Source: a virus
Length of the DNA: 27,269 bases
Direction: 5' to 3' (one strand)
Virus record (IMG/VR): IMGVR_UViG_3300020159_001461
Coordinates: 1-27,269 of that record
Shown in pieces: positions 3,439 to 17,637 of this stretch. The position numbers were made by a program, and so were the translations under genes. Numbering within the stretch: position 1 is the stretch's first letter; every line of letters begins with the position of its first letter. The notes under the pieces are model-generated. The model was not told where the DNA came from. It saw nothing but the letters and a program-made list of their open reading frames with translations, and ran no database searches.

Positions 3439-3544
3439 TGATTGATAATCAATCACTTAGGATTTGGCTAAAAATCCTTCAATCTGGGCTCGATTTTACT
3501 AAAGATTCTTCAATAAATCCTAGGTTTTGCTAAACCTGGCAAAA
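3439..3544. repeat. Operator array of cassette 2 (four dyads)
   Basis: The near-perfect 17-bp palindrome TGATTGATAATCAATCA (3439-3455) is followed by three phased sites: CTAAAAATCCTTCAA (3468-3482), CTAAAGATTCTTCAA (3499-3513) and the half-site CTAAACCTGGCAAAA (3530-3544). Site starts are exactly 31 bp apart, and the third lies 63 bp before the -7 box at 3593. Two local hairpins also exist, AGGATTT/AAATCCT (3459-3478) and AGGTTT/AAACCT (3522-3537). The same layout recurs in cassettes 3, 4 and 5. Binding by a dimeric regulator is inferred. Confidence 0.7.
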
Positions 3545-3549
3545 ACTTT

Positions 3550-3612
3550 TAAAATAGTTGACAAAATTGTGCTTTGTATCAGAAAAAGGGTGTAAATTTA
3601 CCATGTAACAAA
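3550..3612 (+). promoter_or_regulatory. Cassette-2 promoter
   Basis: The upstream box TTTTAAAATAGTTGAC has its TTG at 3558-3560. After 32 nt comes TAAATTTAC at 3593-3601, and ATGTAACAAA follows at 3603-3612. The gene ATG is at 3623. The middle segment GCTTTGTATCAGAAAAAGG repeats that of cassette 1; it also provides a TTG 16 nt before the -7 box. The constant geometry across five loci supports a promoter, although the spacing differs from the usual host TTG-N19-21-TAnnTTTG. Confidence 0.72.
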
Positions 3613-3622
3613 CAATAACGAT

Positions 3623-4048
3623 ATGAGCATCATCAATCTGACCGACATCCACATGACAAATTTCATCCAAGATCGCCCAGGACAATTTAGAGCGATCATC
3701 AAGGTTCAAGCAGGCTTCATGACAGTCGTTGGCGACTTAGGGATCCAGTGTAAATGGGAAAGCGGAGCTCGTTGGAAAAGAGCAATACATGTATTTAGAA
3801 GCTTCAAAGCTGGTGCACTTCAAACTATCGAGTTCAAAGCAGACGGCACAGAAACTTGGTTGCATGTGTTCGCTAAAGCCGGCAAAAAAGTTAAGTTGAT
3901 GGATGCCCAAATGTTCGAAGATATGGAAGTTGGAGATATTAATGACGGCAAGTATTGGTCTACTACCAACCTCTACAATCAGAAACAGTACGCTATGGTA
4001 AATTCTAAAACTTGGGCATCCAAGGTGTTTGTAAAGAACGCCGCCTAA
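3623..4048 (+). CDS. Hypothetical protein, first gene of cassette-2 operon
   Basis: 141 aa, slightly basic and strand-rich, not recognised. ATG 3623 lies 18 nt after the start of the conserved GTAAC leader, matching the other cassettes. The composition is richer in G and C than downstream genes, a trait shared with the other first genes, and fits a strongly expressed early protein. No signal peptide or membrane segment. Function unknown. Confidence 0.8.
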   Translation: MSIINLTDIHMTNFIQDRPGQFRAIIKVQAGFMTVVGDLGIQCKWESGARWKRAIHVFRSFKAGALQTIEFKADGTETWLHVFAKAGKKVKLMDAQMFEDMEVGDINDGKYWSTTNLYNQKQYAMVNSKTWASKVFVKNAA

Positions 4049-4089
4049 ATTTGCCTATTAATTTAATCAACTCACTCAAAATAAAAGTT

Positions 4090-4938
4090 ATGAATAAAAA
4101 TCAAATCATCCTGTCCGCGTTAGAGTCTCAATCAGAGTCAAAGACTATTGAAGTCGAAAATTATAGGAAGTCAGTATACGAACCTGCCCGCAAAGTATTA
4201 AACGAGGAAGTCTTACAATGGTTCAAAGATAACGTTTCTAGTCTTATTTTGAGCCTAGATATATCTACAGACCATATTAATATTCACGGTATGGATCGCA
4301 GAGGTTATGGTTCGTGCAATATATACTTCAACTATGTTGACTACAAGAGTAAAACTAAATACGCTAAAATGAGTTGGTACAGTTCTAGTGCTACTGTACA
4401 AGATAATAACACTTTGACTGATGTCCAGATCTTTGGTGCGGTTGCGGCCAATCTTGCAAACATAGAAGATAAGATGCTAGATACATGGTCTAATACTATT
4501 TGTGAAATAGAAAAAGGTATCTACGCTCACGAATCAAATTTAACCCAAATTAATTCAAGTATACAACAAATCAAGAATGAGATCAGACTCGAAGAGATCA
4601 GTAAGTATAAAGAGATAGGATTCGAATGTGAGTTTAATCCTGAATACTATTATAGTCATACAGACGATAAGATCTTAAAGAGTCCTCGAACTGTTTTAAT
4701 GAAGTACGGTAGAGGCAAATATGATTATGTACACGTAACGCACTATAAAATAGTAAGTAAGATCAAAGACACGTATATCTTAGAAGTCAAAGATCAAAAA
4801 TACACGTCACTCTCAAATGATCAAAAAATAACGATCAAAGAAAAGTACATGTCAGAATTTGTACAAGATGTATATAACTGGGAGACTCAAGGTTCTGCCA
4901 AGTCTAAAGCAAATGCAGAGAAATATCTTAATAAGTAA
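4090..4938 (+). CDS. Hypothetical protein with central coiled coil
   Basis: 282 aa. The frame is open from 4012, but ATG 4090 is chosen because the conserved initiation box CACTCAAAATAAAAGTTATG ends on it and the upstream extension overlaps the previous gene. Residues about 120-175 form a helical, heptad-like region (ANLANIEDKMLDTW through NSSIQQIKNEIRLEE). The N-terminal part is mixed and the C-terminal part has charged strands. It is one of the longer unknown proteins in the arm. No enzyme motif is recognised. Confidence 0.78.
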   Translation: MNKNQIILSALESQSESKTIEVENYRKSVYEPARKVLNEEVLQWFKDNVSSLILSLDISTDHINIHGMDRRGYGSCNIYFNYVDYKSKTKYAKMSWYSSSATVQDNNTLTDVQIFGAVAANLANIEDKMLDTWSNTICEIEKGIYAHESNLTQINSSIQQIKNEIRLEEISKYKEIGFECEFNPEYYYSHTDDKILKSPRTVLMKYGRGKYDYVHVTHYKIVSKIKDTYILEVKDQKYTSLSNDQKITIKEKYMSEFVQDVYNWETQGSAKSKANAEKYLNK

Positions 4939-4967
4939 TTTTATCTAACTAATTAAAACAAAAGGTT

Positions 4968-5309
4968 ATGTTGAAGACAACTAAATTAACATTAGTGCAT
5001 TGGTTCACTAAAGAAGAAACTGAGAAGACCATTACTCCAAAGGATCCTAGGGTTGCAGCCGAGATCCATCAAAGGAATAACCCTGACTGTAGTGTAACTT
5101 TAGAGTGGCATGAGGTGGGTGAGTATAGGTATGCATCTAAAAGACCGTACAATATGGACTTAGATCTTTTGAGTGTAGAAGATCCAGAAGATCCTATGAC
5201 TATGGACCAATTCACAAAGAAGTGGTATGGTAAACTCAGTAAGAATAAGATCAAGGAGATAGAAAAAGAATTAGAAACTGAATACAAAAATGATGAAGAT
5301 GAACAATAA
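4968..5309 (+). CDS. Hypothetical protein, paralogue of the 86-442 product
   Basis: 113 aa. PDCSV (39-43), NM (62-63) and MTMDQFTKKWYGK (77-89) line up in order and near-identical position with the protein encoded at 86-442, giving a small in-window family. The C-terminus is a charged helix (KNKIKEIEKELETEYKNDEDE). The start follows AACAAAAGGTT. Its 3' end overlaps the next gene by 20 nt. Function unknown. Confidence 0.78.
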   Translation: MLKTTKLTLVHWFTKEETEKTITPKDPRVAAEIHQRNNPDCSVTLEWHEVGEYRYASKRPYNMDLDLLSVEDPEDPMTMDQFTKKWYGKLSKNKIKEIEKELETEYKNDEDEQ

Positions 5310-5508
5310 TAAATACTGCAAAGTGTGTGGTGAGCTTATTCACCCCAAGAGAGTCGAGCTAGGATTTAGTACTTCATGTGTAAAACATTCTACTGCATCT
5401 AGATATACAGGAATAGTGGCAGCAGGATCTAAGAGTGACTTTGAAGTTCATATCATTAAGGATCCAGCCTTAGCGAAAGAACTTGTTGAACTCAGTAATA
5501 TTTATTAG
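5290..5508 (+). CDS. Small zinc-finger-like protein
   Basis: 72 aa. CKVCGELIHPKRVELGFSTS is followed by CVKH, giving C-x2-C-x17-C-x2-H (residues about 10-34), a likely zinc-binding knuckle. The pattern 'CxxCGxxIxxxRxxxGxxxxC' is reminiscent of the DksA/TraR zinc finger, but the last ligand is histidine and the coiled-coil part of DksA is missing. Starts at 5290, 5293 or 5299 are possible because ATG is repeated. It overlaps the preceding gene. A nucleic-acid or RNA-polymerase contact is only a guess. Confidence 0.65.
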   Translation: MMKMNNNKYCKVCGELIHPKRVELGFSTSCVKHSTASRYTGIVAAGSKSDFEVHIIKDPALAKELVELSNIY

Positions 5509-5523
5509 AAACAAACTTAGAAC

Positions 5524-5712
5524 ATGAATAGTAAATTAACTCTAAAGGAAAGAATAAAAGCACTTACTCCAGAAGAAAGAGAGCAACTTAAAGAATATAA
5601 AGACGCTTTAATAGAAATAAAAAAAGCGATTAAAGAATTACTATATAAGAAAGACTTAGGAGAAGAACTAGGAGGCAATCGTATGGACTTGTATCTTCAA
5701 ACTGAGGAATAA
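5524..5712 (+). CDS. Hypothetical helical protein
   Basis: 62 aa, rich in Lys and Glu and predicted as one long helix or coiled coil (TPEEREQLKEYKDALIEIKK). Not recognised. It lies 11 nt before the membrane-protein gene at 5724. Confidence 0.68.
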   Translation: MNSKLTLKERIKALTPEEREQLKEYKDALIEIKKAIKELLYKKDLGEELGGNRMDLYLQTEE

Positions 5713-5723
5713 AAACAAATCAA

Positions 5724-6074
5724 ATGGTTATAATTTTAAATTTAGTTTACGGTATTCTATACGGTATCATAGGACAAGTCTTATCGTTCATTCAATTACA
5801 AGCCGGAGTTAAATGGGGATGGACAGATAAATGGTATTGGGTGTTAATGTTATTAGGACTTCCTATTAGTTGGGCATTCATGAAGAGTGTGCAGAACTTT
5901 ATAGTGGCATTCAATGGAGAAACATGGCCGAGTAGACTATGTGGCTTTGGTATCGGAGTTGTTGTCTTTAGTATCCTTAGTTGGTTAATGTTTAGTGAAG
6001 GCTTAACAAATAAAACAATAGTGTGTCTTATTCTTGCACTAGGCATAATATTAGTTCAAGTACTTTGGAAATAG
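5724..6074 (+). CDS. Multi-pass membrane protein
   Basis: 116 aa with four hydrophobic segments at about 2-24, 37-55, 73-91 and 98-115. The loops contain W-rich (WGWTDKWYWV) and NGETWPSRLCGFGIG motifs. Similar small membrane proteins with a TWPxRLxGFxxG loop occur in other phages as unnamed families, from memory. A superinfection-exclusion or membrane-remodelling role is possible, but nothing in the sequence decides it. Confidence 0.72.
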   Translation: MVIILNLVYGILYGIIGQVLSFIQLQAGVKWGWTDKWYWVLMLLGLPISWAFMKSVQNFIVAFNGETWPSRLCGFGIGVVVFSILSWLMFSEGLTNKTIVCLILALGIILVQVLWK

Positions 6075-6120
6075 ATTTTATTTAGATTGACAATCGTATT
6101 AATTTTATCAAAACAAGGTT

Positions 6121-6861
6121 ATGTCAAAGACAATTTGTATAGGAGATCTTCATGGTAGGTCTGATTGGAAGTTAGCAGTTCATCAAGAGAATCCTGATCG
6201 TGTTATATTCATAGGCGATTATTTTGATAGCTTTACTATATCTGCTGTAGAACAGATAGACAACTTTAAGCAGATCATAAAGTATAAAGAAGATAATCCA
6301 CAAATTGAAGTCATTATGTTAATTGGCAATCATTGTCATCATTATTTCCCTGAAGTAGGATACACTGGAACAAGTGGATATCAATTTAAAGTGTCACCAT
6401 CTATAACACAAGTCATAGATGAGAACAGACATCACTTACAAATGGCTTATGGCTTTAATGATTATCTATTTACTCATGCTGGAGTAAGTCCTGTATTTAT
6501 GGATCAGGTATTCGGACCTGATGATTGGAGTATAGAGAGTGTAGTGGTTGATCTTAATGAGTTGTTTAGATATAAACCTAGAGCATTTGACTTCAATGGA
6601 TTAGAGTCAACCGGAGATAATGCAACTCAAACTCCTATATGGATTAGACCTAGATCATTAATGTCTTCAAACAAGAAGCATCCTAAAGGTCTAAAGAACA
6701 ACTACATACAAATTGTCGGCCACACCCAGATGAAGAGACTTGACTTAACAGGCTCAGATAAGTTTACAGGAGGCAGGTACTACTTCATAGATACAATGGA
6801 TACCTCAGGACAATACCTAGTCATTGAAGATGATAAAATGAGAACAGGTTCAGTAAGATAA
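6121..6861 (+). CDS. Calcineurin-like metallophosphoesterase
   Basis: 246 aa. The metallophosphatase signature is complete: GDLHG (8-12), GDYFD (32-36), GNH (69-71), THAG (118-121) and GHT (200-202), which supply the Asp, His and Asn ligands of a two-metal centre. The family includes protein phosphatases such as lambda phosphatase, nucleotidases and nucleases. The GDxHG...THAG...GHT arrangement is closest to the PPP-type serine/threonine phosphatase-like enzymes. The protein is cytoplasmic and the substrate is unknown. Roles in countering host signalling or in RNA-end or nucleotide metabolism are inference. The start follows AAAACAAGGTT. Confidence 0.92.
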   Translation: MSKTICIGDLHGRSDWKLAVHQENPDRVIFIGDYFDSFTISAVEQIDNFKQIIKYKEDNPQIEVIMLIGNHCHHYFPEVGYTGTSGYQFKVSPSITQVIDENRHHLQMAYGFNDYLFTHAGVSPVFMDQVFGPDDWSIESVVVDLNELFRYKPRAFDFNGLESTGDNATQTPIWIRPRSLMSSNKKHPKGLKNNYIQIVGHTQMKRLDLTGSDKFTGGRYYFIDTMDTSGQYLVIEDDKMRTGSVR

Positions 6862-6872
6862 AAACAACTAAT

Positions 6873-7106
6873 ATGAAAGCAATACTTGAATTTAATCTAC
6901 CTGATGATCAGACAGAATTTGATCTTGCTATTTCTAGTAATAAATTTTGGAATGTGTTATATGAACTCGATCAAGAGTTAAGAACAAAAACAAAATACGC
7001 ATCTGATGATTTACCTCAAGACAAGTATGATGCGTATCAAGAAGTTAGAAATTTGTTACGTGAATTGATGTCTGAAAATAATATAAGTTTTGATATAGTA
7101 AAATAA
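6873..7106 (+). CDS. Conserved small phage protein, unknown function
   Basis: 77 aa, acidic. The pattern MKAILEFNLPDDQTEFDLAI followed by KFWNVLYELDQELRTKTKYA recurs in small hypothetical proteins of many tailed phages, as I remember them. No catalytic residues are assigned. It lies 11 nt after the phosphoesterase gene and is probably cotranscribed with it. Confidence 0.75.
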   Translation: MKAILEFNLPDDQTEFDLAISSNKFWNVLYELDQELRTKTKYASDDLPQDKYDAYQEVRNLLRELMSENNISFDIVK

Positions 7107-7117
7107 AAATAAAGAAT

Positions 7118-7378
7118 ATGCCCACATTTACACAAGAAGTAGAAGTTCATATAGATGTAAAAGAGTTTATTGAAGGATGTAGTGACTATAATAAAGATTG
7201 GCTCATAAAATTCTTAATAGAAGACGGTCTTATAAAGAGTGATTCTAGAATTAATGAGTATAACTATTCAATAGCGGAAGCAGACTTCGAACAAGCTTTA
7301 GATAAACTTAAAGGTAAGTACAATATGCTTACTTCCGAAGAAGAACAAATAGTAATTAAACTTGCAAGTAGATTCTAA
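7118..7378 (+). CDS. Hypothetical protein
   Basis: 86 aa, acidic. The N-terminus begins with a strand (FTQEVEVHIDV) followed by helices. Not recognised. The next gene begins one base after its stop (TAATATG). Confidence 0.7.
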   Translation: MPTFTQEVEVHIDVKEFIEGCSDYNKDWLIKFLIEDGLIKSDSRINEYNYSIAEADFEQALDKLKGKYNMLTSEEEQIVIKLASRF

Positions 7379-7379
7379 T

Positions 7380-7544
7380 ATGGCCAACGTAGTAGACTTA
7401 GTAGATCAAATAGAAGAACTATTCTCTAATATACCTGATAAAAGAAAGAAGGCAGAATATCAAGAGTGGAAACAGACTATCAATAAATTAATCATTGAAG
7501 TCAATAAAGAGTCTAAGATAAAGATGTACTTAGAAATAAAATAA
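7380..7544 (+). CDS. Hypothetical small helical protein
   Basis: 54 aa from ATG 7380. A TTG 18 nt upstream in the same frame is less likely because it lies inside the previous gene. Residues form one or two amphipathic helices with no known motif. Tightly linked to 7118 and to the tiny gene at 7546. Confidence 0.6.
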   Translation: MANVVDLVDQIEELFSNIPDKRKKAEYQEWKQTINKLIIEVNKESKIKMYLEIK

Positions 7545-7545
7545 C

Positions 7546-7629
7546 ATGGAAAACAATCGTAGATCATTCTTTTTCAAGGACGCAAACCAAAAATCAGAGA
7601 AGCAAACATTTAATAAAGGCGGCAGATAA
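7546..7629 (+). CDS. Possible 27-aa basic peptide
   Basis: ATG 7546 to TAA 7627-7629 encodes a basic, polar peptide beginning MENNRRSFFFKDANQK. It starts one base after the stop of 7380-7544 and ends just before the promoter-like sequence at 7671. The close spacing supports translation; no family is recognised. Confidence 0.45.
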   Translation: MENNRRSFFFKDANQKSEKQTFNKGGR

Positions 7630-7670
7630 TTATTAATGTGCGACGCGAGATGAGGTACTCCCAAAATTTG

Positions 7671-7679
7671 TATATTTAC
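7671..7679 (+). promoter_or_regulatory. Stand-alone TATATTTAC promoter-like box
   Basis: TATATTTAC is identical to the -7-like box of cassettes 4 and 5, but lacks the 31-bp operator array and the GTAACAAA leader. It lies 47 nt before ATG 7727 in a 97-nt gap with no larger frame. It may start a minor transcript for the genes at 7727-8511. Confidence 0.4.
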
Positions 7680-7726
7680 AGATAAGGCAACAAGACTAGG
7701 CATTAGACAAGACTAAAGAAAGAGAT

Positions 7727-7900
7727 ATGACAGACATACTATACAATTACGTATTACACTACAACCACTTAGAAGAATTGTGGTACCTCGTGCCTCGTGA
7801 CGTACAAAGCCTCTACTTCAACGGCCAGATTAATAAAGACGACTTACTAAAGAATGAAGATGTAAACCAATTAATAAAAACAATAATACAAAATGGCTAA
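7727..7900 (+). CDS. Small hypothetical protein
   Basis: 57 aa (MTDILYNYVLHYNHLEELWY...), ATG 7727 to TAA 7898-7900, overlapping the start of the next gene by 8 nt. The codon choice and the ATGAC start match neighbouring genes. The C-terminal half (INKDDLLKNEDVNQLIKTII) is helical. Not recognised. Confidence 0.68.
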   Translation: MTDILYNYVLHYNHLEELWYLVPRDVQSLYFNGQINKDDLLKNEDVNQLIKTIIQNG

Positions 7901-8150
7901 ACAAGAAACAGTTGAGAAACTAGTTCTCGAAGAAGAACACTTCTCTAAAATAGTAGAGGTACTACACATGATCGACCAAGTAAGAGACAGATTCGAATTG
8001 TACTCACAAAATCCAGGTTCTATGGATGTAAGTAAAGTATTCTTTGAATTAGGTAGAAGCTACGCTGAACTCTGTAAAGCGTATGACACCTTAGATAGTG
8101 TAGCAGATGACTTAAATCCAGCGTGGGAACTGGAGGATGACGAGAACTAA
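7893..8150 (+). CDS. Hypothetical helical protein
   Basis: 85 aa, acidic and almost entirely helical (VEKLVLEEEHFSKIVEVLHM, FFELGRSYAELCKAYDTLDS). Not recognised. It overlaps the preceding gene by 8 nt, suggesting coupling. Confidence 0.7.
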   Translation: MAKQETVEKLVLEEEHFSKIVEVLHMIDQVRDRFELYSQNPGSMDVSKVFFELGRSYAELCKAYDTLDSVADDLNPAWELEDDEN

Positions 8151-8166
8151 TCTCATTTCCATATAT

Positions 8167-8511: not shown

Positions 8512-8535
8512 GGCTCCGGTGAGGCCATTTATAAG

Positions 8536-8642
8536 TGATTGATTATCAATAAGTTAGGGGGAGGGCTAAAGAATATTTAGTCCTTCCTAGTTTTTGGTGA
8601 AGATTCTTCAATAAAAGGCTCATTTTACTAAATGTGGCAAAA
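8536..8642. repeat. Operator array of cassette 3
   Basis: The palindrome TGATTGATTATCAATAA (8536-8552) is followed by CTAAAGAATATTTAG (8566-8580), GTGAAGATTCTTCAA (8597-8611) and the half-site CTAAATGTGGCAAAA (8628-8642). Starts are exactly 31 bp apart and the last is 63 bp before the -7 box at 8691. The first site lies in a longer 9-bp stem (AGGGCTAAA with TTTAGTCCT). The third site is nearly the same as that of cassette 2, including GGCAAAA. Confidence 0.7.
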
Positions 8643-8644
8643 AG

Positions 8645-8710
8645 TTTTAAAAAAAGTTGAAAAAAAGTGCCAATATTGAAAAAAAGGGTGTAAATTTACC
8701 ATGTAACAAA
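8645..8710 (+). promoter_or_regulatory. Cassette-3 promoter
   Basis: TTTTAAAAAAAGTTGAA has its TTG at 8657-8659; after 31 nt comes TAAATTTAC at 8691-8699, then ATGTAACAAA at 8701-8710. The gene ATG is at 8721. The middle segment diverges from cassettes 1, 2 and 5, which shows that the two outer boxes and the leader are the conserved parts. Confidence 0.7.
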
Positions 8711-8720: not shown

Positions 8721-9053
8721 ATGACTACTTACACTTTTGACACCTTGCCTCTTGACACCCAAATCCAGATCCTCAATCAACAGGAGCGTGCTGCCCTCCC
8801 TAAATTCCCTGTCTCTTCCATTACTCGTGAACTCCGTAACCGTGGTTGGATCTACGTGGCCGCTAAGTTCTCTAGGGATTTTAGCTCTGAGCATCTTATG
8901 ACTCAAGACCAGATCTTAGATGAGATTAAGATCGGTATGTTGAGTACTCGCTCTTATGTCGCTGACAGCTTGGCCATAGGTATGGACACTATCGCTAGAA
9001 GTCTGGCTAAGAACATTGTTGAGTACTCATGGTCAGAAAGGGTGGAAGCCTAA
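8721..9053 (+). CDS. Hypothetical protein, first gene of cassette-3 operon
   Basis: 110 aa, mostly helical, not recognised. It starts 18 nt after the GTAAC leader element. The coding sequence is C-rich with many CTC, CCT and CGT codons, clearly different from the AT-rich genes downstream, as in the other first genes. This points to selection for high expression, or a different origin. No membrane segment or catalytic motif. Confidence 0.8.
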   Translation: MTTYTFDTLPLDTQIQILNQQERAALPKFPVSSITRELRNRGWIYVAAKFSRDFSSEHLMTQDQILDEIKIGMLSTRSYVADSLAIGMDTIARSLAKNIVEYSWSERVEA

Positions 9054-9099
9054 GTCTTCCCTCCTCTTCACTTAAATTTAAACACTTAAAATAAAATTT

Positions 9100-9366
9100 A
9101 TGACACACAAAGAATATAGACTCATCGTTAGTAAAGAGATCTTAGAAACATCTGGAAATATTGAGGCAGTCCACTACAAAGTAGGCCATGTATTGAGTGT
9201 TAATGATAATCTTTTTGAACGCTTAAAATCCGGAGAAATAGTGGAGAGATACACTCAAGAAGGAATGATAGAGTTTGATAGGTATAACTTTGAAAATGAA
9301 GTTGAATGTATAACGATTGAAACAACATTTTCTACAGCAAAGTTAGGACAACGTAAAAACAAGTAA
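9100..9366 (+). CDS. Hypothetical protein
   Basis: 88 aa, with mixed strands and helices, not recognised. Its start ends the 20-nt initiation unit CACTTAAAATAAAATTTATG (9083-9102), a variant of the unit used at 9645 and 9894. The next gene follows after 2 nt. Confidence 0.72.
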   Translation: MTHKEYRLIVSKEILETSGNIEAVHYKVGHVLSVNDNLFERLKSGEIVERYTQEGMIEFDRYNFENEVECITIETTFSTAKLGQRKNK

Positions 9367-9368: not shown

Positions 9369-9626
9369 ATGGCACAAAGATCTAAAGCACTTCAGAAAAC
9401 TCTCGACTCAATGAACGCTATCCTCGCTATGGAAGAACTTGGGTTGTATAATCAAGACGGCCACATAGAGAGTGTTAAGAGTGACACAGAACGAGCACAG
9501 TTATACAAGGACGGGATTTGTACTGTAATTGAGACCATGCTCAATAACGCTAACTCATATAAAGGCTTCATGTTTTTGGACCGTGCTTATACTGAAGCCA
9601 GAAGATTTGATCGTAAATATTTCTAA
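9369..9626 (+). CDS. Hypothetical helical protein
   Basis: 85 aa, helical (SKALQKTLDSMNAILAMEEL; ERAQLYKDGICTVIETMLNN), ending in a basic segment. Not recognised. It is followed by the repeated initiation unit of the next gene, which begins 1 nt after the stop. Confidence 0.72.
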   Translation: MAQRSKALQKTLDSMNAILAMEELGLYNQDGHIESVKSDTERAQLYKDGICTVIETMLNNANSYKGFMFLDRAYTEARRFDRKYF

Positions 9627-9644
9627 TCACTTAAAATAAAAGTT

Positions 9645-9863
9645 ATGAAAAAGACAACAAAGATTACTCTTAAAGAAGCACTCACAATAGCTCAAACCAT
9701 GTCAGCCGGAGAGTTTGATAAATTGTATGAAAGCCAGATTGAATTGCTAGATACTGATAATCTATTTAATCCTAATGATGGAATGTACAATATCATTTTC
9801 CATGGCAAAGAGAAGAATGGTAAAAAAATTATGTTGTTCATCAATGGAGAATTTATAGTCTAA
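9645..9863 (+). CDS. Hypothetical protein
   Basis: 72 aa, N-terminal helix then strands (YNIIFHGKEKNGKKIMLFIN). The N-terminus TKITLKEALTIAQTMSAGEF is typical of small helical phage proteins, but no family is recognised. The start is the ATG of CACTTAAAATAAAAGTTATG (9628-9647). Confidence 0.7.
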   Translation: MKKTTKITLKEALTIAQTMSAGEFDKLYESQIELLDTDNLFNPNDGMYNIIFHGKEKNGKKIMLFINGEFIV

Positions 9864-9893
9864 ATAGTTTCTTAATCGCTTAAAATAAAAGTT

Positions 9894-10088
9894 ATGCAAT
9901 ACACAAAAAGAGAATTAGTAAGTTTAGAAACTATCGAACAAGCTTGGGATGGAGATGAACTCAAGATCGATAATAAAGATGGTATGAGAGTGTGGCTTAC
10001 TCACCGTGAAAATAGACAGTATGGTGGTGACTATACTATAGAGAAATTAGTAGATGGTATATGGATCCAAAAGACTTGTTATTTCTAA
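9894..10088 (+). CDS. Hypothetical protein
   Basis: 64 aa, strand-rich and tryptophan-containing (RVWLTHRENRQYGGDYTIEK), not recognised. The start closes the initiation unit CGCTTAAAATAAAAGTTATG (9877-9896), one base different from that of 9645. Confidence 0.7.
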   Translation: MQYTKRELVSLETIEQAWDGDELKIDNKDGMRVWLTHRENRQYGGDYTIEKLVDGIWIQKTCYF

Positions 10089-10568: not shown

Positions 10569-11708
10569 ATGGAAAATTTAAACTCAGTTTGCTATATCGC
10601 TAAGATAGTGGATATAAAGCCTATTGAAGGCGCAGACAATATAGAACTTGCTATTGCCAATGGTTGGAATTGTATTACTAAGAAAGGAGAATATAAGATA
10701 GAAGACTTAGTAATTATTGCCACTACCGATGCAGTAATACCTGAAAAGTTATCTGACTCAATAGGTATTACTAATTACTTACGTAAAGGTAATAGGGTAA
10801 GGACTGTAAAATTACGTGGAGTATATTCAGAGTGCTTGATCATTCCATTCTCATGTCTTGACGGTAGAGCGACTATGGCAGACTGGGATCTAAAACAAGG
10901 TTCTGACTGTATGAGTATCTTAGACATTTATAAGTATGAACCACCTGTAAAGACGGTACAGTTATCAAATGGTAAGAAGATCAAGTATCAAGACAATCCT
11001 AACTTCCAAGTGTATTACAAATTTCCTAATGCTAAGAATGCACCTGAGATGTTTACTTCAGATGACTTAGTGCAAGTTACTCGTAAGATACATGGTACTA
11101 ATGCAAGGTACGGTATTGTAAAGAAGACTAAGATATCTTTATGGGATAGAGTAAAGAAGTTGTTTGGTAATGAATGGATAGAATTCAATTTTATAGTCGG
11201 ATCCCACAATGTCGAGAAAGGTTCTGACTCACAAGGATACTACGGTACTAATGTTTGGTATGAAGTGGCTGAGAAGTATAAAATAAAAGAACAGTTGTGG
11301 AAGTATGTAAAGTTCTTCTATTCTCCAAGTAACTTACAACAAGGTGTAGTTATCTATGGTGAAATATATGGACCTGGCATACAGAAAGGATATGACTATG
11401 GACTTAAAGAACTAAAGTTTAGTGCATTTGATCTAATGATTGATGGAGTATATGAACAAACTTGGGCAACTGAATCTACTATAACTGGATTCTTTGATGA
11501 TATGGATCATGTACCAGTCTTGTATGAAGGAACATATAATAAAGATATCGTAAGCCAGTTTGTAAATGAGAAGATTGAAGGAACTAAAGTACCACATGAA
11601 GGAGTTGTAGTTAAACATCAATCAGGTCAGAGAAATAAGATCTATAAAGTAATAAACCCAGAGTACCTTTTGTATTCAGAGAAACATGACATTGGAGAAT
11701 CGCACTAA
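10569..11708 (+). CDS. RNA ligase, Rnl5/DraRnl-like
   Basis: 379 aa. The N-terminal domain (about 1-120) has the pattern of the OB-fold region of Deinococcus-type ligases: IVDIKPIEGADNIELAIANG, W33, KKGEYKIEDL and a GVYSECLI strand. The nucleotidyltransferase domain follows, with motif I RKIHGTN (K173 the expected AMP-attachment lysine), motif III YGEIYG (263-268), motif IV HEGVVVK (343-349) and motif V IYKVINPEYL (358-367). The enzyme joins RNA ends via an adenylated intermediate. In phages it may repair tRNAs cut by host defences or work in RNA end healing. The phosphoesterase at 6121 could in principle prepare ends, but this link is inference. A candidate TAAATTTG promoter lies just upstream. 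Confidence 0.88.
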   Translation: MENLNSVCYIAKIVDIKPIEGADNIELAIANGWNCITKKGEYKIEDLVIIATTDAVIPEKLSDSIGITNYLRKGNRVRTVKLRGVYSECLIIPFSCLDGRATMADWDLKQGSDCMSILDIYKYEPPVKTVQLSNGKKIKYQDNPNFQVYYKFPNAKNAPEMFTSDDLVQVTRKIHGTNARYGIVKKTKISLWDRVKKLFGNEWIEFNFIVGSHNVEKGSDSQGYYGTNVWYEVAEKYKIKEQLWKYVKFFYSPSNLQQGVVIYGEIYGPGIQKGYDYGLKELKFSAFDLMIDGVYEQTWATESTITGFFDDMDHVPVLYEGTYNKDIVSQFVNEKIEGTKVPHEGVVVKHQSGQRNKIYKVINPEYLLYSEKHDIGESH

Positions 11709-12527: not shown

Positions 12528-12529
12528 TT

Positions 12530-12706
12530 ATGATCGAACCAGTTATGACTTTAGAAGAATTAGAGAGAAGAATCTCTGAATTAGAAAAATCAGTGAAAGA
12601 GAATGATGTAAAGATTAAAATTCTAATTGATTGGATTAATACAAACACTCCTAAAAAAAGTAACTGGTTTCAATTAGATGGTGAAATAATGGCAAGAAAA
12701 TTTTAA
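12530..12706 (+). CDS. Small coiled-coil protein
   Basis: 58 aa, ATG 12530 to TAA 12704-12706. Residues 6-36 form a strong coiled coil (MTLEELERRISELEKSVKEN). The tail is polar (SNWFQLDGEIMARKF). Neighbouring genes are 2-3 nt away, so it is part of the same message. Confidence 0.68.
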   Translation: MIEPVMTLEELERRISELEKSVKENDVKIKILIDWINTNTPKKSNWFQLDGEIMARKF

Positions 12707-12709
12707 GTT

Positions 12710-12892
12710 ATGAATCCTACAGAACGTGCAGAATTTCTACTACAGACATATTCTATAGATAGAGCTAAAAATATTGTTGAGAGTATATTATTTGATGCTA
12801 CTAAAGAAAATGATACTGAAGACATTAAATACTGGACTAAAGTAAAAAAATCACTATCAACTTTAGCAACCAATAATGAAGTAGAACAATAG
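12710..12892 (+). CDS. Hypothetical helical protein
   Basis: 60 aa, helical (ERAEFLLQTYSIDRAKNIVE; DIKYWTKVKKSLSTL). The pattern 'A..L...Y...A..IV..IL......D..YW..VK' is common in small phage proteins of unknown role. Its last codons and stop are inside the terminator hairpin at 12881-12907, which ends this transcription unit. Confidence 0.7.
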   Translation: MNPTERAEFLLQTYSIDRAKNIVESILFDATKENDTEDIKYWTKVKKSLSTLATNNEVEQ

Positions 12893-12907
12893 TTCTACTT
12901 TTTTTTT
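12881..12907 (+). terminator. Rho-independent terminator
   Basis: GTAGAAC (12881-12887), loop AATA, GTTCTAC (12892-12898), then nine T residues (12899-12907). A perfect 7-bp stem plus T-run on the + strand. The stop codon of the upstream gene lies inside the hairpin. Confidence 0.85.
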
Positions 12908-12967
12908 ATATTGTTTTATTTGAAGAAATAGTCTTAATTTTAATACATAATCAAAAACAAATAAGTT

Positions 12968-13114
12968 ATGAAGAAAAGATTCGTAGTAGCATTACTAATT
13001 ATCCCTTGCATTTTTATTGACGGTCTATCATTACCAATTGTCACTATCAATTGGATACTCACAGGAAATATATTACCATCACTGTCACAAAAATTAACAG
13101 AGCAACAAGGATAA
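12968..13114 (+). CDS. Small membrane or secreted protein
   Basis: 48 aa, ATG 12968 to TAA 13112-13114. A basic start (MKKR) and a hydrophobic stretch (FVVALLIIPCIFIDGLSLPI) resemble a signal or membrane anchor; the tail is polar. The start follows AAAACAAATAAGTT. First gene after the terminator at 12881; its promoter is not clearly recognisable. Confidence 0.6.
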   Translation: MKKRFVVALLIIPCIFIDGLSLPIVTINWILTGNILPSLSQKLTEQQG

Positions 13115-13130
13115 GTATAAAACAAATAAC

Positions 13131-13316
13131 ATGGAAAGATATAATGTTATTAGTCAAATAGGTAACCATACGTTAGACTCAATCATTACCTGCGATTATT
13201 TTAGTTATGAAGAAAAATTTTATTTCTTTAGTAATTCAGACTCAGGTGAGTCATGGCGGTATCCTATAACTCTCACATATGTTAAAAAACTTTCAAATAA
13301 AAATGTATATAAATAA
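13131..13316 (+). CDS. Hypothetical protein
   Basis: 61 aa, strand-rich with many aromatics (DYFSYEEKFYFFSNSDSGES). Not recognised. Leader AAAACAAATAAC. The next gene begins 1 nt after its stop. Confidence 0.68.
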   Translation: MERYNVISQIGNHTLDSIITCDYFSYEEKFYFFSNSDSGESWRYPITLTYVKKLSNKNVYK

Positions 13317-13317
13317 C

Positions 13318-13947
13318 ATGAAAGTAAATAGAGAAGATCTAAAATGGTTCATAGATAATATCAAACGTAAATACCCTGACTGTAGTGAAGAGGAATTTGC
13401 TGATCACTTAGCACGTTATATGGAAAGTAACCCTGCTTGTATTGATATGAATGGTATATCTAATCCTGGCCGCTTTAGTTATTCAACAGTAGGTTATGGT
13501 GTATTCAGTCTCTTCGGTGAGAAGTATAGTATGGGTAGAATAGAAGTATTTGATAGAGAGAATGAGAGTGGATATGCTGTGCATGAAGGAGAATACACAA
13601 TGCCTCACGTATCAGCAAATCAGTTTGAAGACTTTATGGACTCATTACAAACCGAGTTACCAATACACATTGAAATAGGTAGTCATGAATGGTGTGCTGA
13701 TGAATGCGCTAAGTCTTTAGGCTTTGAGAATGATGAAGATATGAGAAACCCTGAAAAAGTAAGTGCGTATAGAGACAAGAAGAATGACGAGTTCGCAGTC
13801 CAAAACGGCTACAAAGATTGGAATGATTTGATGGTAAATAGTAAATGGAATATGATATCAGAAGATAAACCTCAACCTAATATATCTTCTTCATGTGAAT
13901 ACAGCGGTCTCCCTTCAGTAGAATCTTACAGTAACGATAAACTTTAA
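13318..13947 (+). CDS. Hypothetical acidic protein
   Basis: 209 aa from ATG 13318, which directly follows the previous stop; an earlier in-frame start at 13279 lies inside that gene and is less likely. A helical N-terminus (EDLKWFIDNIKRKYPDCSEE) is followed by a strand-rich region and by SHEWCADECAKSLGFENDED (about 121-140). Acidic overall, with a low-complexity serine-rich tail. Not recognised. Confidence 0.74.
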   Translation: MKVNREDLKWFIDNIKRKYPDCSEEEFADHLARYMESNPACIDMNGISNPGRFSYSTVGYGVFSLFGEKYSMGRIEVFDRENESGYAVHEGEYTMPHVSANQFEDFMDSLQTELPIHIEIGSHEWCADECAKSLGFENDEDMRNPEKVSAYRDKKNDEFAVQNGYKDWNDLMVNSKWNMISEDKPQPNISSSCEYSGLPSVESYSNDKL

Positions 13948-13977
13948 TTATAATTTCAAAACCAAAAACAACGCAAA

Positions 13978-14406
13978 ATGAAAAAGTTATTCATTCTCCC
14001 TCTGTCTTTGTGCCTTGTATTCTCTTCTTGTAAAAAAGACTCTAGTAAATCAGAGACACAAAAAACCAATATCTTACTGAATGACAATAACTTAACAACT
14101 TCAAAGATTAGACAAACTAATTCAGGAATTACATTGACTGCCACATTTGATCCTAAAACTGGTGTAGTAAAAGTATCTCCTGATAAAAAGAATCAGACCT
14201 TTGTATTTGTATCTTATAAATCATACAAAGACGTAAATGGTTCTTATGTACTCAACTCTAGTATCAACTACGGTACGCGTGTAGGATCATTTGTAGTATC
14301 TAATTACGCATCTATTCCTGTAGGTACTAAACACAAATTAAACTTAGAAGCAAGGACTCCAAATGGTGGTTACTTTAACTTTGTATTCGAAGAGAATAAA
14401 AAATAG
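13978..14406 (+). CDS. Phage-encoded lipoprotein
   Basis: 142 aa. The signal peptide MKKLFILPLSLCLVFSS is followed by Cys18 (lipobox LVFSSC) and the KKDSSKS linker typical of Bacteroidetes lipoproteins. Cleavage and lipid attachment at Cys18 would leave a 125-aa strand-rich domain in the envelope (ITLTATFDPKTGVVKVSPDK; YGTRVGSFVVSNYASIPVGT). In phages such lipoproteins often block superinfection or alter receptors, but that role here is inference. Confidence 0.8.
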   Translation: MKKLFILPLSLCLVFSSCKKDSSKSETQKTNILLNDNNLTTSKIRQTNSGITLTATFDPKTGVVKVSPDKKNQTFVFVSYKSYKDVNGSYVLNSSINYGTRVGSFVVSNYASIPVGTKHKLNLEARTPNGGYFNFVFEENKK

Positions 14407-14411
14407 GTTGC

Positions 14412-14813
14412 ATGAATTTTGAAACATCAACGTTTGAGATTGATTTTTTTGAACTAGCATTCTTGGCGGAGGCATGTATTCCGCCAAGACCTATTGCTAG
14501 AGCTATGTTTTGGCAGAGTCTAACTGATAAGTATTGGCATCAAATGAGTGAAGGACAGAGAAGACATTTATTTCAATGGATTCAAAGGAATTCTTTTTAT
14601 GAAGAGAGTTTAAAGACAGAAGAAGATACTAAAGTATTCCATGCTAGATTTGATCCAGATAATCAATATACAGTATACTCTATATTTGAAGGTATGGATA
14701 AAATAACTAGAGCATTTAAGTTAGGTGACAGATACTGGATAAACACAAGAACGTTTATATCAGAAGAATATATAACTAAGGTTGAGAAATTAGAATTAAC
14801 GTTTGAGTATTAG
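14412..14813 (+). CDS. Conserved phage protein of unknown function
   Basis: 133 aa. FELAFLAEACIPPRPIARAM, FW and the later HQMSEGQRRHLFQWI motif form a pattern I associate with unnamed proteins of large phages. The C-terminal part has strands (ISEEYITKVEKLELTFEY). Not membrane-bound. It follows the lipoprotein gene after 5 nt, so the two are probably cotranscribed. Confidence 0.74.
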   Translation: MNFETSTFEIDFFELAFLAEACIPPRPIARAMFWQSLTDKYWHQMSEGQRRHLFQWIQRNSFYEESLKTEEDTKVFHARFDPDNQYTVYSIFEGMDKITRAFKLGDRYWINTRTFISEEYITKVEKLELTFEY

Positions 14814-14833
14814 AGCATATAAACAAATAATTT

Positions 14834-15019
14834 ATGGAACAAATTAACATTGGCAAATTAGATGACATTCAACTAGCAATGTACTTAGCTCAGAAGAATA
14901 ACCAAGGATATGGTATAGTATATATAGAAAGACAAGCAAACGAGTTTTATAAATGGATGAAGAGTAAGAGAGACGAGATAAGCGATAAAACAAAACAAGA
15001 GCATGTCACAACAAACTAA
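14834..15019 (+). CDS. Hypothetical protein
   Basis: 61 aa, N-terminal helical and C-terminal basic (FYKWMKSKRDEISDKTKQEH). Not recognised. Its end overlaps the next gene by 17 nt. Confidence 0.66.
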   Translation: MEQINIGKLDDIQLAMYLAQKNNQGYGIVYIERQANEFYKWMKSKRDEISDKTKQEHVTTN

Positions 15020-15260
15020 GTTTCAAAGTCCAAGTGCAGTAGAGTGGTTATCTATTCAGTTATATGAGAAAATGAATATGGCTGGTAATGAAAAAGTATT
15101 TGATGAACTAATTGATCAAGCCAAAATAATGGAAGAAGATGATTTGTATACAGAGTATATGAAGGGTTATGAAAAAGGATGGAAGACTTCAAATGAGAAT
15201 TTCAGAAGTGACGTAACTAGATTATATAATAAGTATAACTTCAACACTCCATCAAAATGA
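15003..15260 (+). CDS. Conserved small phage/Bacteroidetes protein (AVEWL family)
   Basis: 85 aa. SAVEWLSIQLYEKMN, FDELIDQAKIMEED and YMKGYEKGWKTSNENF match a pattern of short proteins common in phages and prophages of Bacteroidetes (TAVEWLxxQL...IEQAKxMExxQ...AYxxG), from memory. The function of the family is unknown. It overlaps both neighbours (17 nt upstream; ATGA with the next gene). Confidence 0.75.
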   Translation: MSQQTKFQSPSAVEWLSIQLYEKMNMAGNEKVFDELIDQAKIMEEDDLYTEYMKGYEKGWKTSNENFRSDVTRLYNKYNFNTPSK

Positions 15261-15475
15261 CATTAGCTCCAAAAGAAAAAGCACAACAACTGTATCTAAA
15301 GTATTACGGTATTCCTTTGTACATTAAAACAGTTAAAGAATGTTGTCACTACGCAGTAGATGAAATACTAGATACTCTAAACTTTGATATTCAAGATCTA
15401 GATGTAAGAGGAAGTGTATTATTAGATTTGATTATGTACTGGAAAGTTGTAAAGGAAGAGATAGATAAGTTATAA
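15257..15475 (+). CDS. Conserved small phage protein
   Basis: 72 aa. PKEKAQQLYLKYYGIPLYIK, CCHYAVDEILDTL and YWKVVKEEIDKL follow the pattern of another small family that often sits directly next to the AVEWL protein in Bacteroidetes phages ('PKeKAxeLvxky...AxxxvdEIi...YWxxVkxeI'). Starts with an ATGA overlap. Function unknown. Confidence 0.75.
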   Translation: MTLAPKEKAQQLYLKYYGIPLYIKTVKECCHYAVDEILDTLNFDIQDLDVRGSVLLDLIMYWKVVKEEIDKL

Positions 15476-15492
15476 TAAAAATCAAATAACAA

Positions 15493-15726
15493 ATGAAGGT
15501 AAAAGAACTAATAGAACAACTCCAATCCTTGGATCCTGAACTAGAAGTATTCATACCTGGTTATGAAGGAGGATATGAGAATATAGAAAGGATAGGTATA
15601 CCCGAAGACTTTGTATTAAACTGGCATACAGATTGGTATTATGGTCCACATGAGAAACTAAATGAGATTGGATATCATGTAGAACTCAAAGAACAACACA
15701 AGATAGTAAAAGGAATACTACTATGA
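15493..15726 (+). CDS. Conserved small phage protein (gYEGG type)
   Basis: 77 aa. MKVKELIEQLQSLDPELEVF then IPGYEGGYENI is a pattern of short phage proteins of unknown role (MxVxELIxxLxxxDPxxxVxxxGYEGG). It is the last gene before the terminator at 15777. Confidence 0.75.
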   Translation: MKVKELIEQLQSLDPELEVFIPGYEGGYENIERIGIPEDFVLNWHTDWYYGPHEKLNEIGYHVELKEQHKIVKGILL

Positions 15727-15776
15727 AAGAAGAAAAAGAATAGGATAATATAAAAGAATATAATAAGTAATAAGAT

Positions 15777-15840
15777 AAGAGACCTGAGTAGATTAAATGT
15801 TAGCTAGATTGTTAGCTAGTTCTACCGGTCTCTTTTTCTT
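15777..15840 (+). terminator. Rho-independent terminator with long loop
   Basis: AAGAGACC (15777-15784) pairs with GGTCTCTT (15827-15834), followed by a T-rich tail (TTTCTTTG). The 42-nt loop contains GTTAGCTAG twice (15799-15807 and 15811-15819) and can fold further. It ends the operon that ends at 15726. Confidence 0.7.
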
Positions 15841-15920
15841 TGTAAGATATAACAAATAAGAAATAATAAAAAGAGTGTAAAAGAAATACCAACGTGTGTA
15901 GAAAACCATTGGGTGTTATT

Positions 15921-15946
15921 TTGTGTCTATTTGTGTTAGATTGTGT
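15921..15946 (+). repeat. Three TTGTGT repeats, 10-bp phased
   Basis: TTGTGT at 15921-15926, 15931-15936 and 15941-15946, separated by CTAT and TAGA. The helical phasing puts all three on one face of the DNA. Confidence 0.7.
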
Positions 15947-16047
15947 AACAAAAATCATGAGGACAGAAAAGCCAATTCCGTAGTCCATCAATACCTTGGT
16001 TTTATAAATATTAAAAATATATTTTCAGAGTAATCTATAAATAAAAA

Positions 16048-16103
16048 TAATAAAAATTTATCCTTTTATAATAAAAATTTATTAATAAATAATAAAAATG
16101 TAA
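16048..16103 (+). repeat. Three TAATAAAAAT repeats, 21-bp phased
   Basis: TAATAAAAATTTAT is present exactly at 16048-16061 and 16069-16082, with a variant TAATAAAAATGTAA at 16090-16103. The 21-bp step is two helical turns. The region may be easily melted or curved. Confidence 0.65.
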
Positions 16104-16182
16104 ATATAAATATTCTTTAGCAATACCAATATACCACTAAAGATTCTTCAACCAAAGCCTAGAAACACTAAATAAAACAAAA
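16077..16182. repeat. Operator array of cassette 4
   Basis: ATTTATTAATAAAT (16077-16090) takes the place of the distal palindrome. Then come ATAAATATTCTTTAG (16106-16120), CTAAAGATTCTTCAA (16137-16151, identical to the middle site of cassette 2) and the half-site CTAAATAAAACAAAA (16168-16182). Starts are 31 bp apart and the last is 63 bp before the -7 box at 16231. Confidence 0.65.
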
Positions 16183-16184
16183 AG

Positions 16185-16250
16185 TTTTAAAAAAAGTCAA
16201 ATAAATGTACCACAATTCAGGAATTAGTCTTATATTTACACTGTAACAAA
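16185..16250 (+). promoter_or_regulatory. Cassette-4 promoter
   Basis: TTTTAAAAAAAGTCAAA has GTC at 16196-16198 in the place of TTG; after 32 nt TATATTTAC lies at 16231-16239, and CTGTAACAAA at 16241-16250. This is the most diverged copy between the boxes, but every spacing is kept. Confidence 0.65.
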
Positions 16251-16261
16251 TGAATGAATAT

Positions 16262-16567
16262 ATGATTAACGTATTAGACACCACTCCAGTTGTAGGCACC
16301 CGTATGGACGACCGTGTATCCACTCTTATTGGAGCCACTAGAGACATTACAGAACTTCAAAGAATCGTGACTAACTATAACGATCTTATGCTTGAGCCCG
16401 ATCAAGTTCAGTTAGATTTATTTCCTGGGGATGATGGTACCCAAAAAGCATTACTCACTGGCACAGCCATGGGAATATTCCATATAGGATTAAGACTTGG
16501 TCACTCAGAAGAAAGGCAATACCTTAAGGATCTTGGTCCTTCTTTGAGAGAGATCATGATAGGATAA
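16262..16567 (+). CDS. Hypothetical protein, first gene of cassette-4 operon
   Basis: 101 aa from ATG 16262. An ATG at 16250 in the same frame would add four residues, but it overlaps the conserved GTAACAAA leader, and the other cassettes start 18-20 nt after GTAAC (here 19 nt). The protein is mixed, with LDLFPGDDGTQKALLTGTAM and a helical C-terminus. Not recognised. Several CGT arginines near the 5' end resemble the other first genes. Confidence 0.75.
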   Translation: MINVLDTTPVVGTRMDDRVSTLIGATRDITELQRIVTNYNDLMLEPDQVQLDLFPGDDGTQKALLTGTAMGIFHIGLRLGHSEERQYLKDLGPSLREIMIG

Positions 16568-16604
16568 TATTAATTACTACTAAACAAAATAAAAAATAAA
16601 AGTT

Positions 16605-16934
16605 ATGAACACAGTTACAGCAATGAATCTTGTATCGAACAGTGCATCCAGTATCTTTACTAAGCAAGATGTACTTGATATCCTTATTCGTATTGAATCA
16701 ACTCCAGTAGAACAGCAAGGCAAAGTCATTACTCAGAATGATATGGAAGAGTTTATTGACTACATGTCAGATCAAATGCGGAACCTGGGTTCAGGAGACG
16801 TAGTAGACTTTGACAGTGCAGAGTATAGCTTGTGTGACAATTCAATTATCCTTGAAGACGTTAGTATTAATATTGATACCGTTGTTGATGAATTGAGAAG
16901 TGCAGTAGAAGAATATTTTAAATCTAAAGACTAA
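16605..16934 (+). CDS. Hypothetical acidic protein
   Basis: 109 aa, acidic and mostly helical (TKQDVLDILIRIESTPVEQQ; NIDTVVDELRSAVEEYF). Not recognised. The start follows AAAAAATAAAAGTT. Confidence 0.74.
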   Translation: MNTVTAMNLVSNSASSIFTKQDVLDILIRIESTPVEQQGKVITQNDMEEFIDYMSDQMRNLGSGDVVDFDSAEYSLCDNSIILEDVSINIDTVVDELRSAVEEYFKSKD

Positions 16935-16967
16935 ATAGATAGATTTTATATAATGAATAGATTGTCT

Positions 16968-16975
16968 TATATTTG
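16968..16975 (+). promoter_or_regulatory. Candidate promoter of the HTH gene (TATATTTG)
   Basis: TATATTTG is an exact match to the host -7 element, in the 66-nt gap before ATG 17001. No clear TTG is found 19-21 nt upstream (a T-rich GATTTTAT lies there). It suggests separate, host-type transcription of the regulator. Confidence 0.5.
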
Positions 16976-17000
16976 TTATATACAAAACAACATATCAGTT

Positions 17001-17240
17001 ATGAATTCAAATCGTCCAACTAGCTACACTAAGCTTAACAATCAACAGAAGATCAGCCGTATTAACCGTCGTCTCCGTATGGGAGATATCAGCAAGGTTG
17101 CCCAGAATACCGGCTACAGTCCAAACTATACTTCCGAAGTCCTTTCAGGTAAGTATCAAAATCAAAGGATCATTAACGAAGCTTATGATCTTACGCGTGG
17201 TCGCATGTCAAACACTGTTAAGCTTAGTCAACTGAGCTAG
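17001..17240 (+). CDS. Small helix-turn-helix DNA-binding protein
   Basis: 79 aa from ATG 17001, chosen over an in-frame ATG at 16953 because the TATATTTG promoter lies between them and a GTT box precedes 17001. The protein is basic. MGDISKVAQNTGYSPNYTSE and VLSGKYQNQRI (27-57) form a Cro/XRE-type HTH: helix (ISKVAQNTG), turn, recognition helix (SPNYTSEVLSG). Similar short HTH proteins occur in Bacteroidetes phages. The coding sequence is enriched in CGT/CGC arginines. It lies directly upstream of cassette 5 and is the best in-window candidate to bind the repeated palindromes; this is inference. Confidence 0.78.
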   Translation: MNSNRPTSYTKLNNQQKISRINRRLRMGDISKVAQNTGYSPNYTSEVLSGKYQNQRIINEAYDLTRGRMSNTVKLSQLS

Positions 17241-17463
17241 TAGTATCAGTTAGTCATTATTTGTTACAAATACGCCTGGGGTTTTTACCCTGGGCTTTAC
17301 TTGTTTCTAAAATACCTGATATTTATTGTAGTAAGAAGCTGATCCCTCCCGGGCTGGTACCGTATATGAATGAGAAAATTGAGGCCAATTACAACCAAAT
17401 AAAGTGACATAAGACTAGAAAGAATGAGCCCTACCAAGGGCTATCGTAGTTTATGGCCATAAC
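17241..17463. other. Non-coding gap with hairpins before cassette 5
   Basis: No gene-sized frame. It holds the weak terminator at 17274-17300, a GATATTTAT motif (17318-17326), a GC-rich patch (CCCTCCCGGGCTGG, about 17345) and the perfect hairpin AGCCCT-ACCA-AGGGCT (17427-17442) without a T-run. A 13-codon frame from 17367 is judged chance. Confidence 0.5.
17274..17300 (+). terminator. Possible terminator after the HTH gene
   Basis: GCCTGGGG (17274-17281) and CCCTGGGC (17288-17295) pair over 8 bp with two G-T wobbles around the loop TTTTTA; a weak T-rich tail (TTTACTTGTTT) follows. Plausible, but less certain than those at 12881 and 21351. Confidence 0.45.
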
Positions 17464-17569
17464 TGATTGAAAACCAATCACTTAGGATCTGATTGAAGAA
17501 TCTTTAGCCCAGGCCAGGGTCCATTGAAGATTCTTCAATGGAAGTGCCTCCAGACTAAATGAAACAAAT
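17464..17569. repeat. Operator array of cassette 5
   Basis: The palindrome TGATTGAAAACCAATCA (17464-17480) is followed by TTGAAGAATCTTTAG (17493-17507), TTGAAGATTCTTCAA (17524-17538) and the half-site CTAAATGAAACAAAT (17555-17569). Starts are 31 bp apart, the last 63 bp before the -7 box at 17618. The middle site is the centre of a longer perfect 23-bp inverted repeat (17520-17542), the best dyad of the set. Confidence 0.72.
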
Positions 17570-17570
17570 A

Positions 17571-17637
17571 TTTTAAAAATAGTTGACTAAAATGTACCCA
17601 GTATCAGAAAATAGTTATATATTTACAATGTAACAAA
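17571..17637 (+). promoter_or_regulatory. Cassette-5 promoter
   Basis: TTTTAAAAATAGTTGAC has TTG at 17583-17585; after 32 nt TATATTTAC is at 17618-17626 and ATGTAACAAA at 17628-17637. The segment GTATCAGAAAATAGTTATA and the leader up to ATGACT are nearly identical to cassette 1. Confidence 0.72.

Follow-up and report, generated by a model that had tools for sequence, protein, structure and literature searches.

Promoter cassettes with sites phased at 31 bp head several operons in an uncultured tailed phage

Introduction

At class I activator-dependent promoters, such as those of Escherichia coli CRP, the activator is bound near -61.5 and at a site about 31 bp further upstream, and acts by touching the C-terminal domain of the alpha subunit of RNA polymerase; as a principle, phased activator sites in tandem are not new. 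Phages provide other arrangements: the OR and OL operators of lambda overlap the promoters that they repress, and the middle promoters of T4 carry a single MotA site at the -30 position. Little has been described of how Bacteroidetes phages control transcription, and a search of the literature found nothing on the promoters of phages like the one analysed here.

Here we describe a cassette that recurs in IMG/VR record IMGVR_UViG_3300020159_001461, a 27,269-bp fragment of a tailed phage; the entire record was analysed and is referred to as the window. Each complete cassette joins a -7-like box to two dyads and a half-site that follow one another at intervals of exactly 31 bp, and the evidence strongly supports a regulatory array. 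No description of such a layout, with two dyads and a half-site at a fixed 31 bp throughout a gene set of a phage, or of the replacement of such arrays as a block, was found in the literature searched, in keeping with a preliminary description of the window, which knew of no described switch with this layout in Bacteroidetes phages.

Results

Two dyads and a half-site in fixed register

The four complete cassettes have boxes that start at positions 3593, 8691, 16231 and 17618 (all features given for the window are on the plus strand), and, exactly as the preliminary description had it, 15-mers start 125, 94 and 63 bp upstream (offsets are the start of a site relative to the start of the box). 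Read from 5' to 3', a cassette with 31-bp phased dyads (type A) comprises a palindrome of a second kind (type B), dyad A1 (-125), dyad A2 (-94), half-site A3 (-63), an A/T core, AGTGC, the box, a start region and an ATG. The two dyads follow the motif YTRAAGAWTCTTYAR. The A/T core, CAAAAASTTTTAAAA, comes after the half-site at about -53 to -39; AGTGC or AGTAC is conserved ~24 bp before the box, at the -33 position; and the box itself (TAWATTTAC) is followed by the start region TGTAACAAA, with the ATG 19–32 bp past the box start (median 31). A fifth cassette, which the preliminary description did not include, is cut by the start of the window (1–73): its core and box (54–62) precede a gene at 86–442, and its array lies off the record.

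Three dyads had originally been recognised. When palindromicity is scored as the number of arm pairs, out of 7, that match (mean 1.88 and P(≥5)=0.018 for the background), the four cassettes of the window average 5.75 at -94 and 4.75 at -125; when four random anchors were drawn 20,000 times, the best common offset reached 4.75 in 0.085% of cases and never 5.75. At -63 the scores are 3, 1, 2 and 2 of 7, and the mean over 25 non-redundant cassettes (1.72 of 7) is at background, which rules out a third dyad. The conserved element at this position is a left half-site, YTRAA, that reads CTAAA in 21 of the 25. Information content is 1.05 and 1.26 bits per position in the dyads, and 0.54 and 0.74 in the spacers. 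The additional palindrome that had been placed upstream of the array is of a different kind, namely a 25-bp motif (TAASTGATTGATWATCAATCASTTA) centred about 28–29 bp before the -125 site, at about -146 from the box; it is present in the cassettes at 3593, 8691 and 17618 and absent from that at 16231.

In cassette 1 the type-B palindrome (TAACTGATTGATAATCAATCACTTA, 3435–3459) is followed by a weak A1 (CTAAAAATCCTTCAA, 3468–3482; 3 of 7 arm pairs), A2 (CTAAAGATTCTTCAA, 3499–3513), the half-site CTAAA (3530–3534; not a dyad), the conserved A/T core (CAAAAACTTTTAAAA, 3540–3554), and the box (TAAATTTAC) with its start region (together 3593–3612). Cassette 2 has the palindrome TAAGTGATTGATTATCAATAAGTTA (8532–8556), A1 (CTAAAGAATATTTAG, 8566–8580), A2 (GTGAAGATTCTTCAA, 8597–8611), CTAAA (8628–8632), and box plus start region at 8691–8710. 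Cassette 3, which lacks the upstream palindrome, begins with A1 (ATAAATATTCTTTAG, 16106–16120) and continues with A2 (16137–16151; the same sequence as A2 of cassette 1), CTAAA (16168–16172), and box plus start region (16231–16250). Cassette 4 contains the palindrome TAACTGATTGAAAACCAATCACTTA (17460–17484), A1 (TTGAAGAATCTTTAG, 17493–17507), a perfect A2 (TTGAAGATTCTTCAA, 17524–17538; 7 of 7), CTAAA (17555–17559), and box plus start region (17618–17637).

Spacing is fixed in related phages while spacers diverge

The cassette was found again, with identical offsets, in related IMG/VR contigs. With the DUF932 protein encoded at 17967–18779 as query, 23 related loci were obtained from IMG/VR (G and L numbers below denote related phages and loci); the closest named isolates are the Flavobacterium immuto phages, of ~160 kb, at a protein identity of about 32–36%. 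Annotated phages contained no near DNA match to the window, blastn with the cassette returned short A-rich matches only, and no known RNA element in Rfam was matched. The phages that carry the cassette are a group of uncultured Flavobacterium-type phages.

The spacing in relatives had been named beforehand as a point on which the preliminary description would stand or fall, and there the 31 bp holds. In a test blind to spacing (20 related records, pairs 16–60 bp apart), the distance was exactly 31 bp in 25 of 27 dyad pairs, the two exceptions being single hits in records without cassettes. When boxes were picked by their own sequence only, a dyad was found at -94 in 24 of 41 and at -125 in 24 of 41, with at most 2 at any other offset; one cassette is displaced as a block, to -95/-126, with the 31 bp retained. 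In a scan of 2.9 million viral contigs of IMG/VR for dyad pairs (gaps 3–33), 31-bp matches were confined to this phage group and the others were scattered. None of these three tests presupposes the spacing, and their results concur. A core pattern free of dyads recovered only the known type-A contigs and one additional type-A cassette.

While the A1–A2 spacing is invariant across cassettes, the spacers are only 42–57% identical between them (27% is expected at random), and in half of all cassette pairs the identity of the first spacer is ≤40%. Because the spacing is fixed in relatives while the spacers diverge, selection appears to act on geometry, as had been proposed: the comparison supports an array whose geometry is kept as its sequence drifts. 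(A Fisher test on indels is not relied upon, the register of some sites being partly imposed by the way in which cassettes were collected.) Since 31 bp is about three helical turns, the sites are also placed on one face of the DNA, as the preliminary description held. The same data bear on whether the cassettes are simply recent duplicates of one promoter, in which case spacing would be kept by common descent and not by selection. All copies resemble one another in core and box, as duplication predicts; however, the spacers have diverged around a constant A1–A2 spacing, the gap between the type-B palindrome and A1 and the length of the leader do vary, and shifts of 1–10 bp between dyads were not seen in related phages. 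Recent duplication is a highly improbable explanation.

Orthologous operons are headed by different arrays

In sister phages the promoter core is the same, and orthologous operons are headed by a different array. In the type-B array the palindrome TAASTGATTGATWATCAATCASTTA is repeated at 25-bp intervals, starting near -64, -89 and -114; the proximal site is at -64 or -65, a distance to the box that is constant within about 1 bp. The diverged, ~30-bp array of G042 has its dyads placed at about -93 and -123, and TTAGAT occupies the site at -64. First genes are orthologous across these array types. In type-A phages a type-A array precedes the 118-aa, 290-aa, 141-aa and 105-aa families, and in G018 all four follow type B; two of them (118 aa and 105 aa) also occur downstream of the G042 array. 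For a 99-aa family the array is of type A in G006 and of type B in G003, G014 and G017. The same gene set is therefore addressed by different arrays in different phages. From the sequences, it looks as if the array code is rewritten as a block and one phage regulator controls the whole gene set.

Within the window, the first gene behind cassette 1 (3623–4048) has a G018 orthologue behind a type-B array, and orthologues of the first gene behind cassette 3 (16250–16567) lie behind a type-B array in G018 and the diverged array in G042. The operons of cassettes 2 and 4 begin with genes at 8721–9053 and 17650–17904, the latter followed by the DUF932 gene. An RNA ligase (10569–11708) related to phage RNA ligases (phrog_968, E 7e-58) is encoded downstream of cassette 2. 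A leader motif, AAAATAAARGTTATG, recurs before many start codons (899–935, 4069–4105, 9079–9115, 9624–9660, 9873–9909 and 17946–17982) and is likely to be a translation-start context.

Most type-A cassettes also have the type-B palindrome, at -149 to -152, and type-B-only cassettes exist beside type A, on different operons, in G003, G014, G016 and G008. Both observations would fit an enhancer operated by two regulators, in which palindrome and A array are bound by different proteins (B general, A specific to the regulon) and the combination sets timing. The cassette at 16231 lacks the palindrome, however, and elsewhere it stands at distances from A1 that differ by up to 3 bp; it may be independent of the array, or a relict. 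We regard a two-regulator enhancer as possible, if on the doubtful side.

In more distant phages the same core is accompanied by one palindrome only, GTTAATAAC, at about -57 from the box, with copies at L028:3866, L029:1273, L034:6297/5001/2624 (IMGVR_UViG_3300012663_000707) and L217:11471, 10850 and 9310. In some copies of IMGVR_UViG_3300012663_000707 a hairpin (GGCCTGACATTTTTTTATGTCAGGC) and then a T-run come directly before the -7 box.

A candidate regulator

The regulator is probably encoded by the phage, and its leading candidate would be a small helix-turn-helix (HTH) protein (17001–17240) whose recognition helix reads SPNYTSEV. The gene has its own promoter upstream and is followed, before cassette 4, by an intrinsic terminator (17274–17295); in many related phages it is single-copy, with its own promoter and terminator, and located just before a cassette. 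The predicted model has five helices (pLDDT 84), its matches among PDB structures, for the most part XRE-like, are weak (Foldseek E≥0.6, Z under 5), and the protein matches the phrog_925 HTH with E 0.0008. No relatives were found in annotated phages, PDB sequences or bacterial genomes.

Among 23 aligned homologues the helix STTHVSDV is invariant in 19, some of which are only 47–48% identical to the window protein, and SPNYTSEV occurs in four (the window, L105, L107 and L043), as well as in G003 and G014. SPNYTSEV proteins form one clade (99/97) confined to type-A phages (G000, G003, G011, G012, G014 and G016). The association between helix and array is suggestive only: array type cannot be read strictly from the helix, given the mismatch in G006 and G042, and the HTH protein is therefore kept as a candidate and nothing firmer. 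G006 groups with G003 and G014 in the DUF932 tree, and the mismatch would fit either exchange of the HTH gene or a different binder. A bolder reading of these sequences, which we consider doubtful, is that operators at orthologous operons were rewritten in concert (25-bp tiled palindromes, 31-bp phased dyads and the ~30-bp diverged version, each in a lineage of its own), driven by a switch of the recognition helix from STTHVSDV to SPNYTSEV. If true, this would be a natural case of regulator–operator co-evolution that also alters the geometry of the array.

A second candidate, a 60-aa family (12710–12892) found among the phages sampled only in type-A and G042 phages, was rejected; it does not look DNA-binding. 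No convincing type-A-specific regulator gene was found in the available contigs, as would be expected if the dyads were bound by a regulator of the host and not of the phage. Yet when 84,980 genomes of bacteria and archaea were scanned for dyad pairs, 90 stretches were obtained in which 31 bp was not over-represented (among the 80 listed, 6 had this spacing, fewer than at some other spacings), and array types differ among closely related phages, which makes a host regulator very unlikely.

The HTH genes of G003, G006, G011, G012, G016, G017, G018 and G021 have a separate class of promoter (ACTMTAAAGATC ... AGGTTCAAAAATAGTCTTATATTTACTATAT), without arrays; the HTH promoter of the window (about 16905–17003) has TATATTTG instead of the version of its relatives. 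In G007 a GIY-YIG-like endonuclease gene (L039:234–989) occupies the HTH position upstream of a cassette, and an HTH gene was not found in that contig.

Position of the array favours activation

Sigma-A promoters of Flavobacterium psychrophilum have a TAnnTTTG box at -12 to -5 (PMC9723704). The first seven positions of the box TANNTTTAC fit this consensus and the last is A, not G; the canonical -33 TTG/TTTG element is absent from the cassettes, which have AGTGC/AGTAC there instead. With the box at -12 to -5, transcripts are expected ~12 bp after its start, and sites 63–125 bp upstream of the box therefore fall some 65 to 140 bp ahead of the expected start, clear of the usual polymerase footprint. 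Activation is favoured because the array is outside this footprint, the register of the box is fixed within about 1 bp (in types A and B), and a normal -33 element is missing. Of the roles originally suggested (activator, repressor or enhancer), the first fits best: judged by position, the sites are, on balance, probably an activator array for one phage-encoded dimeric regulator that drives several operons of small non-structural genes.

According to this hypothesis, each cassette would be a phage promoter plus upstream sites for one dimeric DNA-binding regulator. Bound dimers would be aligned on one DNA face by the 31-bp interval between A1, A2 and the half-site A3, and the sites are in fixed register with the A/T core and with a -7 box of Bacteroidetes sigma-A type, which lacks its canonical -33 partner. 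The regulator may bind cooperatively, and may recruit or stabilise host RNA polymerase from upstream in a class-I-like manner; several operons of small non-structural genes would then be switched on together. The array would serve as an exchangeable 'address' for whichever regulator a phage uses.

Some points weigh against the activator hypothesis. The box TANNTTTA departs from TAnnTTTG at its last base; an upstream array is also capable of repression, through looping for instance; some type-A phages retain type-B cassettes at other operons, so that two regulators may act; and G006 (type A) and G042 (type-A-like) carry the common helix STTHVSDV. If the dyads were the target of a phage repressor, it would coat or loop the upstream DNA and silence the promoters until removed, as in a lysis–lysogeny or early-to-late switch. 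Phased dyad arrays are typical of cooperative repressors, and a small XRE-like HTH protein is encoded beside a cassette. However, no dyad overlaps the -33/-7 region, a repressor acting from upstream would not need a box register that is kept within 1 bp, and the promoters seem weak in their own right. A prophage state is not indicated, because no relative of the HTH protein was found in bacterial genomes, and no integrase was noticed in the window. A repressor array thus seems unlikely.

Discussion

In this system a strict rule of geometry is combined with a set of genes that recurs in many uncultured phages and with the natural replacement of arrays at orthologous genes. Joint change of a regulator and all of its operators becomes directly testable, and the motif allows the regulon to be recognised in metagenomes.

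Compared with lambda-type arrays, the cassettes likewise have several similar dyads in a row and a small HTH protein encoded nearby, the gene for which adjoins cassette 4 (with a recognition helix that is mismatched to array type in G006 and G042). They differ in that the sites are 63–125 bp upstream of the box and are repeated at many operons; no dyad of the array lies between -63 and the box, where an operator overlapping the promoter would be. Like the middle promoters of T4 they would, as proposed here, place many operons under one phage factor by way of a short site that precedes a normal -10-type box, whereas the multiple phased dyads, further upstream, have no counterpart in the MotA arrangement.

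There is also a parallel with class I promoters of the CRP type. In both, dimer sites are about three helical turns apart, the -35 region is weak and the proximal site is in fixed register; in the cassettes A1 and A2 lie upstream of the expected footprint, at a whole-turn separation of 31 bp, with the register of the box fixed. The cassettes depart from that model in belonging to another host phylum and another sigma factor, in having only a half-site as proximal element, in serving several co-regulated phage operons, and in the replacement of the array as a block; the activator, moreover, is one that we infer. As promoters, they resemble the sigma-A promoters of F. psychrophilum in the TANNTTT box and the short leader to the ATG, and differ from them in the change of the final G to A, the lack of a TTG-type -33 element and the possession of a long conserved upstream array (PMC9723704).

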